Positions 15,293-64,000 of a stretch of DNA of 64,000 nucleotides are shown piece after piece (position 1 is the stretch's first letter; each line of letters begins with the position of its first letter). The position numbers were made by a program, and so were the translations under genes. Origin of the DNA: Actinomycetota bacterium (GTDB taxonomy: Bacteria > Actinomycetota > Acidimicrobiia > Acidimicrobiales > RAAP-2); NCBI GenBank assembly GCA_021324355.1, contig JAJPJD010000051.1, positions 1-64,000 on the forward strand, read 5' to 3'. Below the pieces are notes generated by a model. That model ran no database searches. It saw only the letters and a program-made list of their open reading frames with translations, and was not told the DNA's origin.

Positions 15293-16933
15293 GTGCTGAG
15301 GGTCCGCCGCCTCGGGATCGTCCCCTATCACGAGGCGGACGCGCTCCAGCGAGCCCTGGCCGAGCGGTCCGATGACGACTACCTGCTCGTGCTCGAGCAC
15401 CCCCCGGTCTTTACGTTGGGGGTGCGGGCTGACCCCCAGCATGTCCTGTGCGACCCCACAGCCCTCGGGGTGCCGCTCGTGCGGACCGACCGTGGTGGCG
15501 ACGTCACGTTCCACGGCCCAGGGCAGCTCGTCGTCTACCCGGTCCTGACCCTGTCTGACCATCCGTCGGCCGGGAGGATCCATGTGGGGCGGCTCGAGCA
15601 GGTGGTGATCGACGCCCTCACCGAGCTCGGCGTGGCGGGGGCAGGCCGGCTCGCCGGGTTCCCGGGGATCTGGCTCGACCCGGAGGGCCTCAGGCCGGCC
15701 AAGGTGGCCGCGATTGGGGTCCGGGCCCGCCGGCGGCGCGATGGCCGGCGGCGAAGCCTGCACGGGGTCGCGATCAACGTTGACTGCGACCTGTCGATGT
15801 TCGAGCAGATCGTGCCGTGTGGGATCCGCGATCTGCCGGTCACCTCCCTTGCTCGAGCCGGAGTGGACGTATCGTTCGACCAAGTGGCCGACGCAGTGGT
15901 GGCCCGGGCGGTCGCCGAGTGGGGGGACGGGGAGATCGAGGAGCAGGCCGTGACCCCTCGTCGCCCAGCGTCCTCCGCTCCGCTCGCCCTCGGTCGCCGA
16001 GAGCCACCCGGCGCCGTCCGGCTGCGCCAGGCCGGCGTGGATCCGGGGGCGGGCCTTGCCCTCTCGGCCCGCAAGCCTCCGTGGTTGCGGGTCCAGGTCC
16101 GAATGGGAGAAGAGTTCCGAAGCACCTCTCGGACCCTCGGCTCCCTCTCGCTGGTGACCGTGTGCGAGGAAGCTGGGTGTCCGAACATCTTCGAGTGCTG
16201 GGCCGAGGGAACCGCGACCTTCATGGTGAACGGCTCCCGCTGCACCCGGGCCTGCGGGTTCTGCAAGGTTGACACCGGGCGTCCCTTGCCCCTCGACCCC
16301 GGCGAGCCCGAGCGGGTGGCCGAGGCGGTGGAGCGGCTCGGCCTTGCTCACGCGGTGGTGACCTGCGTCGCCCGCGACGACCTGCCGGACGGCGGTGCCG
16401 GCGCGATTGCCCGGACGGTCGACGCGATCCGGCGGCGTCGACCCGGCACTCGAGTGGAGGTCTTGGTGTCGGACTGTCGAGGCGACCAGGAGGCGCTGGC
16501 GCAGATCCTCGAGTCACGGCCCGACGTCTTCAATCACAACATCGAGACGGTGGCCCGGCTGCAGCGGGCGGTCCGGCCGTCGGCCGGGTACGCCCGGAGC
16601 CTGACCGTGCTGGCCCGGGCAGCTGACGCCGGGCTGGTGGTCAAGTCAGGTCTTATGGTCGGGCTTGGCGAACGGGAGGAGGAGGTGGTGGCCACGCTGG
16701 CCGACCTCGCCGGGGTCGGGGTCCGCATCGCCACGGTGGGCCAGTACCTCCGGCCGAGCCGAGCCCACCTCCCGGTGGCCCGGTGGTGGACGCCCGAGGA
16801 GTTCGAGCGCTTGCGCCGGGCCGGGCTGGACCTGGGGCTGGTCCATGTGGAGGCGTCACCGCTGACCCGCTCCTCGTACCACGCCCGGGCTGCGGCCGAG
16901 GCGACCGCCGCCCCGACCCGAAGGTCAGGCTGA
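15293..16933 (+). CDS. LipB-LipA fusion: lipoyl(octanoyl) transferase joined to lipoyl synthase
   Basis: LipB: LEHPPVFTLG, RGGDVTFHGPGQLVVYP, KVAAIGVR, HGVAINVDCDLSMFEQIVPCGI. LipA: RKPPWLRVQVRMGEEF, TVCEEAGCPNIFECW, CTRACGFC, HNIETV, KSGLMVGLGE. Single uninterrupted frame; possible internal GTG at 15950 with AGGAG. Confidence 0.88.
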   Translation: MLRVRRLGIVPYHEADALQRALAERSDDDYLLVLEHPPVFTLGVRADPQHVLCDPTALGVPLVRTDRGGDVTFHGPGQLVVYPVLTLSDHPSAGRIHVGRLEQVVIDALTELGVAGAGRLAGFPGIWLDPEGLRPAKVAAIGVRARRRRDGRRRSLHGVAINVDCDLSMFEQIVPCGIRDLPVTSLARAGVDVSFDQVADAVVARAVAEWGDGEIEEQAVTPRRPASSAPLALGRREPPGAVRLRQAGVDPGAGLALSARKPPWLRVQVRMGEEFRSTSRTLGSLSLVTVCEEAGCPNIFECWAEGTATFMVNGSRCTRACGFCKVDTGRPLPLDPGEPERVAEAVERLGLAHAVVTCVARDDLPDGGAGAIARTVDAIRRRRPGTRVEVLVSDCRGDQEALAQILESRPDVFNHNIETVARLQRAVRPSAGYARSLTVLARAADAGLVVKSGLMVGLGEREEEVVATLADLAGVGVRIATVGQYLRPSRAHLPVARWWTPEEFERLRRAGLDLGLVHVEASPLTRSSYHARAAAEATAAPTRRSG

Positions 16934-16950
16934 GACCGGGGCCGCCCAGT

Positions 16951-17385
16951 TCAGCTGCGGGTGGCCACGTGCTGGGTCCAGCTGGTGCCGTCCCAATAGC
17001 GCAGCGTGTCCGGCGCACCGCTCGGATCAGGCAGCCACCCAGCCGGGGTTCCCGGGGGCGGCGCTTGGGGGACCGGCGGTGGGGGCGGGGCCGGGGCGGC
17101 AACCGGCGGGCTGGCAACCGGCGGTCCAGCAGTTGCCAGCCCGCCGAAGCCGGCGAACGGGTCATTCGGCTGGCTGCCGGCACCTCCGCCTGCCGGGACC
17201 TGCATGGTCCCCAGGTCGCTGTAGTAGGAGGCGGCCGAAGCCGGAGCGGCCGCGTGGCTGCCGCCCTTGGCCGGCCGGCTCTGCCGGCGGTACAGGACGA
17301 GGACGGTCGCCAGCAGGATGATGACGATCGCCAGAATCACCACCTCGATCATCTTGGTGGAGCTGGAGAGAGCGGCCAGCGTCAC
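16951..17385 (-). CDS. DUF2510 domain membrane-anchored protein
   Basis: N-terminal TM (VVILAIVIILLATVLVL), Pro-rich linker, C-terminal GWLPDPSGAPDTLRYWDGTSWTQHVA; start GTG 17385 or ATG 17352. Confidence 0.75.
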   Translation of the reverse strand: MTLAALSSSTKMIEVVILAIVIILLATVLVLYRRQSRPAKGGSHAAAPASAASYYSDLGTMQVPAGGGAGSQPNDPFAGFGGLATAGPPVASPPVAAPAPPPPPVPQAPPPGTPAGWLPDPSGAPDTLRYWDGTSWTQHVATRS

Positions 17386-17592
17386 GGCTCTACCCCCAGG
17401 GTCGTTGCCCGGTGTCTTCCCACTCCCGAACGGTAGCCCCGGGGCGTCCGCGGATCGGGGATATCCGCTGGCCAGGGCGACTCCCGGCTCCCGACCTCCG
17501 GTTGTGGCCCCGACCGGGGCGGTAAGGTGGGGACGGGCGCACGGCCATGCACTCGGGCGGCCGTGGGTGCCGGTGTGAGAGGGGGTTGTGCG

Positions 17593-56526: not shown

Positions 56527-57105
56527 ATGCAAACCGGCAACACCCCGCGGCTCGTACGCGCGTTGCGTCGAGCCCACGATCGGATGAAGGGCCGTACCGA
56601 GCTGGAGGGGGCCGAAGCCGGCTTCACCCTCATCGAGCTCATGGTCGTGCTCTTGATCATGGCCATCCTGCTCGCCATCGCCATCCCGACCTTCCTCGGG
56701 GTGAAGGGGAGCGCCCAGGACCGTGCGGTCCAGTCGAACCTGACCAACGCGTTGACGTCGGCCAAGGCGTCGTACGCAAACAGCGACTCCTACGCCACGG
56801 CCGCCTCGCTCGAGGTCTCATCGCTGAGTGCCGATGAGCCCAACCTCACGTTCGAGACCGGGGCTGCCACCACTGGGTCGAACAACGTGGCGGTCAACGT
56901 CTCGACTGACGGCCAGCAGCTCTTGCTGGTGGCCTACTCGCAGAGCGGGACCTGCTGGGCGGTAGCCGACAACGAGGGCACGACGGCCGCCATCACCGGA
57001 ACGCCGTCTGCTCTCGGGACGCAGTACACCAGCTGGGCTGAGAGCTCGAACGCTTGCAGCGCGGCGACCTTGCCTTCCAGCTTGACGTGGCGGTCGCACT
57101 ACTAA
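56527..57105 (+). CDS. Type IV prepilin-like protein
   Basis: Class III signal GAEAG^FTLIELMVVLLIMAILLAIAIPTFLGVK; gggagg SD upstream. Confidence 0.93.
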   Translation: MQTGNTPRLVRALRRAHDRMKGRTELEGAEAGFTLIELMVVLLIMAILLAIAIPTFLGVKGSAQDRAVQSNLTNALTSAKASYANSDSYATAASLEVSSLSADEPNLTFETGAATTGSNNVAVNVSTDGQQLLLVAYSQSGTCWAVADNEGTTAAITGTPSALGTQYTSWAESSNACSAATLPSSLTWRSHY

Positions 57106-58639: not shown

Positions 58640-58888
58640 TCAGCAGTCGGGGGCCGAGGAGTCGGTCGGGTCCAGCGGGTCCCGGGTCGCCCCGCACTCG
58701 GGCAAGGTGCTCGACGTCGCCGGTGCGGTGGTGGTCGTGGTGGGGTGCTGGCCGCCCGTCGGAACGGCCGTGGGCGGCGTGACCGCCGGCGATCCGGCTG
58801 AGCAGCCGGCGGCCAGCACCCCGGCAAGCGCCAGCGCGGCCAGGCCGGCTGTGCCACGCCGCCATCGGGAAGGGGTGAACGCGGTCAT
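58640..58888 (-). CDS. Small Thr-rich lipoprotein
   Basis: Signal peptide with lipobox (LALAGVLAAGC); ATGA overlap with pilO. Confidence 0.7.
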   Translation of the reverse strand: MTAFTPSRWRRGTAGLAALALAGVLAAGCSAGSPAVTPPTAVPTGGQHPTTTTTAPATSSTLPECGATRDPLDPTDSSAPDC

Positions 58889-59472
58889 CCGGTGCCCGCG
58901 GCGCTCGACGAGGCACCCCGGGTGGCGAAGATGTCCAGGTTGAACTGGTCAGTGAGCACGGTTCCCCGGTTCGTGCCGGTGCCTCCGCCGGTGATGGAGA
59001 TCTGGCTGATGATGGTCAGCCGAGGGAGGGCATCGAGCGCCTTGATGAAGGCGAGCGTCTGGCTGTACGTGCCGGTTGCCGACACGGTGATCGGGATGAC
59101 CTCGAGGTTCCCGCTCGCCGTCGGGGCCGAGGGGTTCACGCCGGAAACCTTGACCCCGGTCGCCGACGCGGCATTCGAGAGGGCGGTGATGTAGTCGTAG
59201 ACGCCCGTCGAGGAGGGCACCGCCGCGCTCAATCGCTGAGCCAGCGCCTGGAACTGGCCCGACTCCCTCGAGTACGCCTTCAGCCGGTCGAGCCGGGCCT
59301 GGAGGGCGTTCTGCTGCTCCTGGGCGCTCTGGACCGAGGCGTTCACCGAGGCCAGCTTGTGGCCCTCGGGGACGAACAGTGCGAGCAGCCAGACCAACAG
59401 GACCACCAGAGCGATGGCAATTGAGAGCAGGACCGTGCGGGTGCGAAGGACCGCGACTATTTCGCGGTTCAT
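58885..59472 (-). CDS. pilO: Type IV pilus assembly protein PilO
   Basis: N-terminal TM, coiled-coil (ASVQSAQEQQNALQARLDRLKAY), C-terminal PITVSATGTYSQTLAFIKALDALPRLTIISQISI. Confidence 0.85.
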   Translation of the reverse strand: MNREIVAVLRTRTVLLSIAIALVVLLVWLLALFVPEGHKLASVNASVQSAQEQQNALQARLDRLKAYSRESGQFQALAQRLSAAVPSSTGVYDYITALSNAASATGVKVSGVNPSAPTASGNLEVIPITVSATGTYSQTLAFIKALDALPRLTIISQISITGGGTGTNRGTVLTDQFNLDIFATRGASSSAAGTG

Positions 59473-61133
59473 GGCCCGGGCACCTCGTACTCGGATACGC
59501 GCTGCGACGCCGCGCCGTTCAGGACGTCGAGCGTCGTCGAAAAGCTGACCCCGCCGCCCTGGGTGGAGGTGGAGACGCTCGAGCTCAGGTCGGGCAGCTC
59601 GAAGATCGGGGACTGGCTGAGCGCCTGGCCCCAGGTGGTGACGTCATCCAGGGTTTGCGTGAACACCTGCGCGTTCACCGTGCCGAGGGACTGACCGGCA
59701 GCGCTGCTGGTGCCCTGGCCCGGGATCGACGTGGCGGCCATGGAGACGTTCTGGAGTGTGGCGTTGGGCGGGATGTACTGGGCGATCTGGTTGAGCACCA
59801 CCAGCCAGTCGACCTCTTTCTTCAGGGTCGGCAGGATGAGGGCGGACTGGCGCTCGACCTGGTTGCGGAGCGCGAGGGCCTTGTCGTACTTGGGGATCTC
59901 GACGTTCTTGATCGTCGCGTTGGCCGCCTCGATCGCTTGCAGGTGATCCTCCGCGTTGTGCACTTGCACGAAGCGCAGGCCAGTCAGGCCGACGACCAAA
60001 ACGCCGACCGCTACGGCGGCACGGGTGAGAGCTCGGTGCACTCGCTTCTGCACGGCTCGGGCCCGGACCGACTCGGGGAGCAGGTTGAAGGCCCGCCCGG
60101 AGGGATCGGGGAGCGCGAGGCCGACCGGCACGGCTGCCACCGTGTCGACCTCCGCGGCCTGCTGGGGGGTTAGGGGCAGCCCGGCGGCGTCGAGGGCCGA
60201 CAGGGGCGAGGCGAGCGCCACCGGCACCCCGGTGGCCTGGCCCATCGCCTCCAGCAGACCGTGAGTCCGGGTGCCGCCCCCGGTCAGCAAGACCCTGCTG
60301 ACCGGCTGGCGACCAGCCAGGGAGCCGAAGAAACGGACTGAGTTGTTGATCTCGTCCACCAGGGCTCCGACTGCTCGTTGGCAGGCCCCGGCGGCCAACG
60401 AGTCGTGGACGCCCGGTGCGCCGAGGCGCCGCTTGGCCACCTCGGCGTCGCGCAGCGGGATGTCGAGCGCACCGGCGATCGCGGCGGTGATCGTCTGGCC
60501 CCCCTTGTCGAGGGTTCGCACGAACTGGAGGGTCCCGCCCTGGTGCACGACGATCAGAGTCAGCGTGGCGCCGATCGAGACCACCGCTTCGGGTGATTGC
60601 TGCCCGGTGGCGAGCGCTCGGGCCAGTGCGGCCGTCTGGAGGTCGATCGACACCGGTTCCAGGCCGGCTCGTTCGAGTGCCTCGATGAGTGACGCGAGGA
60701 CCTCGGCATGAGCTGCGGCCACCTGCACCCGCAAGGTCGGGGGACCGTCGGCCCCGGCCACCTGTGCGATCACCTTCGACGAGAGGACTGTCTCGTCGAG
60801 GGCGAACGGTAGGACTTCGTCGGCCTTGAAACGGACGGCCGACTCGAGCTCGTCGGGGGGCAGGAGCGGCATGTCGATGTCTCGCACGATGGCCCGGAGG
60901 CCGGCCACGCCCACCCGGACCCGGCGGTTGCTGAAATGGCCTTCCCGCCACAGCCGACGCAGGGCATCGGCCAGCCCAGCGCGATCGCGAACCTCGCCGT
61001 TGGCGACGATGCCAGGTTGGAGCCCGACTTGGCCAAAGTTCGTGATCGCCGGGCGCTGACCCCCATCGAGGGTGAGCTCGACCGCCCGTACGGCGGTGGT
61101 GCCGATGTCCAGACCGATGCTTTGGTATGCCAT
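59469..61133 (-). CDS. PilM-PilN fusion protein
   Basis: PilM actin-like region (SIGLDIGTTAVRAVEL, RVLLTGGGTRTHGLLEAM) continuous with PilN-like region starting FNLLPESVR followed by TM (AVAVGVLVVGLTGLRFV) and coiled-coil/ferredoxin-like part. Confidence 0.85.
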   Translation of the reverse strand: MAYQSIGLDIGTTAVRAVELTLDGGQRPAITNFGQVGLQPGIVANGEVRDRAGLADALRRLWREGHFSNRRVRVGVAGLRAIVRDIDMPLLPPDELESAVRFKADEVLPFALDETVLSSKVIAQVAGADGPPTLRVQVAAAHAEVLASLIEALERAGLEPVSIDLQTAALARALATGQQSPEAVVSIGATLTLIVVHQGGTLQFVRTLDKGGQTITAAIAGALDIPLRDAEVAKRRLGAPGVHDSLAAGACQRAVGALVDEINNSVRFFGSLAGRQPVSRVLLTGGGTRTHGLLEAMGQATGVPVALASPLSALDAAGLPLTPQQAAEVDTVAAVPVGLALPDPSGRAFNLLPESVRARAVQKRVHRALTRAAVAVGVLVVGLTGLRFVQVHNAEDHLQAIEAANATIKNVEIPKYDKALALRNQVERQSALILPTLKKEVDWLVVLNQIAQYIPPNATLQNVSMAATSIPGQGTSSAAGQSLGTVNAQVFTQTLDDVTTWGQALSQSPIFELPDLSSSVSTSTQGGGVSFSTTLDVLNGAASQRVSEYEVPGP

Positions 61134-63186: not shown

Positions 63187-64000
63187 GTGACCCCGGCCGA
63201 ACTGGAACGCCTTCTCACGCTGCTCGACCAATGGGACGGGTCGGACCTGCATCTGAAGGCCGGCGCTCCGCCGAGGATGCGGATCAACGGCGAACTTCGC
63301 ACCCTCGTCGACGAGCTGCCCCTCACTCCTGAGGACACGTCCGCCATCGTGGCCGCGATCGCGCCACCTCGGGTGGCCGAAGCCTTTCTGCGCCACCATG
63401 AGGTCGACTTCGCCTACTCGGTTCCCCGGTTGGCCCGGTTCCGGGTCAACGCCTTCTACCAGCGCAGCACGGTCGCCCTGGTGTTTCGACGGGTCCGATC
63501 GGCCCCAGCCAGCCGCCAGGAGCTCGGTCTCCCCGAGGTGGTCTACGAGCTGGCCTCCGAGCAGCGGGGCCTGGTGCTCGTGACTGGGCCCACCGGCTCG
63601 GGCAAGACCACCACGCTGGCGTCGATGGTCGACCACATCAACCGCACCCGGCCCTGCCACATCGTGACGATCGAGGATCCCATCGAGTACCTCCATCGGG
63701 ACCAGCTGGCCGCGATCGAGCAGCGCGAGGTGGGCTTCGACACCGACTCATTCGCGAGCGCGATGCGGGTGGTGCTCAGGCAGGACCCCGATGTCATCTT
63801 GGTCGGGGAGATGCGCGATCAAGAGACGGCCTTTGCCGCGCTGACTGCGGCTGAGACCGGGCACCTCGTCATGACCACCCTGCACACGATCAACGCCACC
63901 GAGACGATCACCCGGATCGTCGACTTCTTCCCACCCCACCAGCAGCAACAGATCCGAGTCTCGCTGGCCGGCTCGCTCAGAGGGACCATCGCCCAGCGCC
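63187..64000 (+). CDS. pilT: Type IV pilus retraction ATPase PilT (truncated by window end)
   Basis: SDLHLKAGAPPRMRINGEL, VTGPTGSGKTTTLASMVDHIN, IEDPIEYLH, RQDPDVILVGEMRDQETA, TTLHTINA; open at 64000. Confidence 0.93.
   Translation, partial: MTPAELERLLTLLDQWDGSDLHLKAGAPPRMRINGELRTLVDELPLTPEDTSAIVAAIAPPRVAEAFLRHHEVDFAYSVPRLARFRVNAFYQRSTVALVFRRVRSAPASRQELGLPEVVYELASEQRGLVLVTGPTGSGKTTTLASMVDHINRTRPCHIVTIEDPIEYLHRDQLAAIEQREVGFDTDSFASAMRVVLRQDPDVILVGEMRDQETAFAALTAAETGHLVMTTLHTINATETITRIVDFFPPHQQQQIRVSLAGSLRGTIAQR

Follow-up and report, generated by a model that had tools for sequence, protein, structure and literature searches.

A natural fusion of PilM and PilN in a predicted monoderm type IVa pilus system of Acidimicrobiia

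The pilMN gene and its pilus neighbourhood

The window, by which we mean the whole stretch of 64,000 nucleotides that was analysed, encodes PilM and PilN in a single gene. This gene, pilMN, is one open reading frame of 554 aa on the minus strand (59469-61133), with an ATG start and no internal stops, and the plus-strand reading of the same interval is interrupted by stops. Residues 1-341 (60111-61133, minus strand) form the PilM actin-like domain. The Pfam model PilM_2 (PF11104) matched residues 7-341 (E = 5.2e-43; 147.7 bits, cut-off 27), the NCBIfam model TIGR01175 pilM scored 184.7 bits against a cut-off of 133, and the domain matched PDB chains 3jc8, 2ych, 5eou and 5eox. Continuing along the same strand, the last helix of PilM, marked by GLAL, is followed by a 7-residue linker, PDPSGRA (60090-60110), and by the docking motif FNLLP at residues 349-353 (60075-60089), both read directly from the sequence. 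A transmembrane helix is predicted from the Kyte-Doolittle maximum at about residues 373-391 (59961-60017); this maximum lies 19 residues past FNLLP, and the helix has 5 net positive charges on its cytoplasmic side. The PilN periplasmic domain lies at residues 446-535 (59529-59798), where the Pfam model PilN (PF05137) matched with E = 3.6e-6 and 27.4 bits (cut-off 22.8).

Thus PilM is here not a separate soluble cytoplasmic protein, as the chain runs on into the transmembrane helix and PilN, and the PilN part has its cytoplasmic [IVF]NLLP tail followed by a single transmembrane helix. The preliminary description had read PilM as continuing into FNLLPESVR without a stop, though it left the strand unstated, and had placed a transmembrane helix and a PilN-like periplasmic part behind the motif. 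It had also taken PilM to be covalently fixed as the cytoplasmic head of PilN, with the docking motif retained at the junction. All of this is borne out by the continuous frame and by the two Pfam matches, which exceed their curated cut-offs, the PilN match falling within the region of about 345-554 first assigned to it. The fusion is real and not an assembly artefact, since it is also carried by five contigs of the same genus (67-72% identity; labelled Acidimicrobiaceae or Actinomycetes), by dozens of further genomes and by G042, a one-contig assembly of 99% completeness. When the 2.45 Mb assembled genome (64 contigs) was searched, the PilN HMM matched the pilMN locus alone, and the pilMN protein itself had no second match.

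Genes of a type IV pilus surround pilMN. The pilO gene (58885-59472, minus strand; 195 aa; PF04350 PilO, E = 1.4e-12) overlaps pilMN in an ATGA at 59469-59472, and a third gene overlaps pilO in the same way at 58885-58888, so that the ATGA coupling first described for pilO and the lipoprotein gene is present at both boundaries. A type IV pilin gene lies at 56527-57105 on the plus strand (PF07963 N_methyl, E = 4.9e-7; TIGR02532 above cut-off), and a gene for the retraction ATPase PilT (TIGR01420 above cut-off) begins at 63187 on the plus strand and continues past the window end at 64000. Beyond the window, the same contig encodes pilB, a second pilT-family gene and pilC, and the prepilin peptidase PilD is encoded on a different contig. 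Pilin, PilB, PilC, PilD, PilT and PilO are therefore all encoded, as in a type IVa pilus. No secretin (PilQ or GspD) was found in the genome with PF00263. The PilQ secretin is a diderm feature, and its absence is expected in a monoderm. Judged solely from the genes of the assembled genome, the predicted system is a monoderm type IVa pilus without a secretin.

Some features of the neighbourhood stand apart from the fusion. Two MshEN domains were called in the PilB of this contig, and the second PilT-family ATPase (653 aa; G000:C21 67554-69515, plus strand, equivalent to L150 5054-7015, plus strand) has an N-terminal MshEN domain. MshEN domains are of the c-di-GMP-binding type and are usual in PilB/MshE extension ATPases. 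A few kb past the pilus cluster, a TrwC relaxase (L150 13717-15126, plus strand) and a conjugative coupling protein (16135-17493, minus strand) are encoded, hinting at an integrated conjugative element.

An actin-like cytoplasmic head, one transmembrane helix and a PilN-like periplasmic domain are also united in one protein in GspL/PulL of the type II secretion system, and PulL has been described as a PilM-PilN fusion (PMC10191384). Given this shared architecture, and a partner gene that also scores on GspM-like models, pilMN could in principle be a GspL rather than a pilus protein. We give this hardly any credence. The best matches of the protein are PilM, over the TIGR01175 cut-off, and PilN; NLLP stands at the junction; no GspL family appeared in the Pfam or NCBIfam output; and the gene sits beside pilT in a genome that encodes two PilT-family ATPases and no secretin, GspD included. 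Membership in a type II secretion system was rejected on the lack of a GspL model match and of a secretin in the genome.

A putative PilP-like lipoprotein gene beside pilO

The third gene (58640-58888, minus strand) encodes an 82-aa protein with a lipobox and the sequence RDPLDP, ending in ..CGATRDPLDPTDSSAPDC. It had first been noted simply as a lipoprotein, a label with which the lipobox agrees, but it is probably not a mere unrelated neighbour, as it resembles a shortened PilP. In most of the Actinomycetota examined, a counterpart is encoded at this position and consists of an anchor, a low-complexity linker, [RK][DN]PFxP and a beta-rich domain at the C-terminus, often ending in LK. RDPLDP of the window lipoprotein corresponds to RDPF or KNPF in most relatives, and in Myxococcus xanthus PilP (PDB 3JC8) the C-terminal domain is preceded by KRDPF. 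An [RK]DPF motif between the anchor and the C-terminal domain may be PilP-defining.

Profile comparisons were used to examine this relationship. The Pfam PilP model (PF04351) matched neither the window lipoprotein nor its relatives. The C-terminal domain of the relatives aligned with a PilP profile of three sequences (hhalign P = 5.6e-5, probability 66%). The Pseudomonas PilP probe fits 2LC4 almost throughout its C-terminal part, and its N-terminal part is provisional. Against the PDB, the third-gene profile had Neisseria PilP (2IVW) as its second match, at a non-significant E of 0.72. A match to a mitochondrial ribosomal protein spans the low-complexity linker and was set aside. These results suggest that the third gene is likely a PilP homologue.

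The window lipoprotein lacks the C-terminal HR-type beta domain. It looks like a shortened PilP in which the anchor and an RDPF-type motif remain. In the genus of the window, in families f16, f42 and f29 and in part of f18, little or nothing of the protein follows the motif, and besides the window gene such shortened forms were seen at L104, L038, L040, L159-L161 and L169. None of 51 genomes checked encodes a secretin. If the PilP homology is true, the motif outlives the domain that contacts the secretin in diderms, and a reduced PilP-like partner without a secretin would separate the role of PilP at the PilN-PilO complex from its secretin role.

Distribution and origin of the fused gene

A survey of related Actinobacteria for fused and split genes, as proposed in the preliminary description, found both forms across the phylum, with the fusion tied to lineage. 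PilM was present in 22 of 41 near relatives sampled, and every complete copy lay in a frame of 557-639 aa or longer. Throughout the class Acidimicrobiia, PilM was present in 90 of 297 genomes. In the same order as the window genome, every PilM uncut by a contig end runs into PilN, odd cases having been checked individually; the apparent split at L156 proved to be a contig end. Some other families of the class are also fused (e.g., f45, f53, f57, f61 and f65), while f44, f46, f48, f49, f51, f55, f58, f60 and f63 have split genes. Outside the class, one of the phylum loci examined is fused (L131), and in almost the whole sampled phylum the genes are split and adjacent. The length of the C-terminal extension past PilM is bimodal, at 3-19 aa in split genes and 175-280 aa in fused genes, except in contig-cut cases and L103. 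To judge from this distribution, the fusion is a lineage trait. A search of plasmid records gave no match.

Several unusual loci came to light in the survey. The fusion outside the class (L131 4087-5793, minus strand; genome G656) is independent; its linker is longer, and its motif reads ADLMP. At L103 (2807-5758, minus strand; genome G078, family f59), PilM is joined to a transmembrane helix and a putative PilN-like end; the extension after PilM is 639 aa, including several hundred low-complexity residues before the helix, and the motif is eroded to about IDVLK. Long frames in f85 and f102 that resembled fusions were rejected as N-terminal extensions of split PilM. These extensions (L132-L136 in f85 and L137-L140 in f102) precede the PilM domain and are long, charged and of low complexity; some of them contain repeated motifs, WKKELS for example.

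Phylogenies of the PilM domain were used to place the origin of the fusion. In the larger tree, of 103 rows, 51 fused proteins fall on one side of a single branch, and L131 is a separate fusion. A tree of 55 rows, from which the longest branches were omitted and which was rooted with PilM of Myxococcus, Thermus and Pseudomonas, recovered the fused forms as one clade (99/94), and 99% of its bootstrap trees need only one origin of fusion. The fused clade is nested among actinobacterial split PilM lineages in this rooted tree, which implies that the fusion is the derived state. Most probably, the PilM and PilN motor subunits of a monoderm type IVa pilus became joined in one polypeptide by one fusion event in an ancestral member of Acidimicrobiia.

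Junction, docking motif and known fusions

Comparison of fused and split relatives suggests how the join arose. Where the genes are split, pilM ends 3-5 aa past GLAL (16-19 in one family), pilN mostly starts -4 to +3 nt from the pilM stop, and INLLP lies near the PilN start. Where they are fused, the linker from GLAL to the motif is 7-13 residues in most. The distance from the motif to the transmembrane helix has a median of 14 residues in fused and 13 in split forms, with a range of 10-19 in both, and the periplasmic part has a median of 174 versus 169 residues. This matching geometry implies that the fusion erased the gene boundary and altered little else.

The fused frame might still contain an internal pilN start, from which free PilN could be made, or PilN might be released by post-translational cleavage, with the two proteins acting separately after all. 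An in-frame start codon does lie within 6 codons before the motif in 8 of 52 fused genes. However, the pilMN gene of the window is not among them, no start position is conserved across the 52 genes, and a Shine-Dalgarno-like string accompanies the start in only 3 of the 8 (3/52). We consider separately acting proteins very improbable, and an internal start for free PilN was rejected on the unconserved starts and by the lack of one in the window gene.

We also asked how well the docking motif has been kept. The first eight residues of PilN bind a channel between two PilM subdomains (PMC6325625), and for monoderms another PilN motif has been proposed to bind PilM (PMC6916266). Across 51 fused proteins, the motif columns carry 2.4-4.0 bits versus 1.0-1.7 in most flanking linker and juxtamembrane columns, a contrast somewhat inflated by taking the best match near the junction as the motif position. 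The motif N persists in 34/52 fused versus 54/58 split forms and the P in 46/52 versus 57/58, and the L is kept in 48/52 fused forms. When PilM identity was matched (35-40%), pairwise identity of the motif was 0.54 in fused and 0.78 in split forms, uncorrected for shared descent. A fair reading of these alignments is that the motif in fused proteins has been kept but relaxed, as expected of a weak interaction turned intramolecular.

The same relaxation could mean that the motif is a relic, in that a tethered PilM needs no groove docking and FNLLP survives simply as a linker close to the membrane. Consistent with this, fused proteins show the looser motif when divergence is matched, its P or more has disappeared from some fused lineages (IDLTT, INLIG, IDLSM), and L103 interposes its low-complexity stretch between PilM and the transmembrane helix; tight groove binding may therefore not be required. 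Nevertheless, L and P persist at the above frequencies while adjoining columns drift, and L351 and P353 belong to the 29 positions that are invariant in a set of 14 diverse fused proteins, with N350 nearly so. We regard a mere relic as unlikely.

Continued docking of FNLLP in the PilM groove is indirectly suggested by motif conservation, by the unchanged geometry and by PDB 5EOU, a single chain of PilM and PilN that aligns with the pilMN protein through the motif. AlphaFold models, built from only 6 input sequences, were too poor to use (mean pLDDT 42.4 at full length and 42.5 for residues 1-364). We envisage that the fusion did away with the border separating two adjoining genes, pilM and pilN, and left almost nothing extra, such that the short cytoplasmic tail of PilN sits 7-13 residues after the last helix of PilM. 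Extrapolating from the published PilN-PilM binding and the 5EOU alignment, the [FI]NLLP segment would stay in the PilM cleft of its own or a neighbouring subunit and act as a shaped joint that links the actin-like head to the membrane, instead of a reversible clip. PilM may then relay PilB/PilT movement via PilN-PilO to the pilus base, and drift of the motif in some lineages would reflect binding that no longer depends on affinity alone.

Fusions of this kind are already known and would not surprise a specialist, GspL/PulL being one example. Another is Clostridioides difficile, for which a passage in a review (PMC6916266, citing Melville and Craig 2013) describes PilM and PilN joined in a monoderm type IVa pilus; this system belongs to Firmicutes, and our comparison is with the review's description rather than with the sequence. 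The 5EOU chain, from Pseudomonas aeruginosa, likewise has PilM followed, after a short linker, by the INLLP peptide of PilN, but it is an engineered crystallisation chimera with only the start of PilN, whereas the natural pilMN contains all of it. Split pilM-pilN pairs of other Acidimicrobiia and Actinomycetota share gene order, motif and geometry with pilMN, but encode two proteins with a stricter INLLP. The PilM-like Amuc_1101 family (NF045709, about 608 positions) aligns with residues 54 to 455, across the junction, scoring 99.5 bits where the cut-off is 650, and pilMN is not a member. No report of a PilM-PilN fusion in Acidimicrobiia was found in the literature searched, mostly outside subscription journals. 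What is new is a separate clade in Actinomycetota with a PilN-type docking motif at the join, to which split sister lineages can be compared.

These results bear on whether PilM must leave PilN in the pilus cycle, a question that a natural fusion helps to answer as separation is impossible here, and they suggest that the PilM and PilN parts can work permanently connected. Taken jointly, PilM would have been tethered ever since the fused clade arose, and its third partner would be a PilP homologue reduced to an anchor and RDPF, a combination we find plausible if slightly more open to doubt than to belief. Were it true, neither extension nor retraction would need PilM to be released from PilN, a PilP homologue would have been retained without a secretin and reduced apparently several times, and the RDPF motif would be the minimal working part of PilP. 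The pilMN protein also provides a ready structural construct, one chain in place of a weak complex, and the coexistence in one class of fused and split genes that match at the junction makes their mechanics comparable between relatives.
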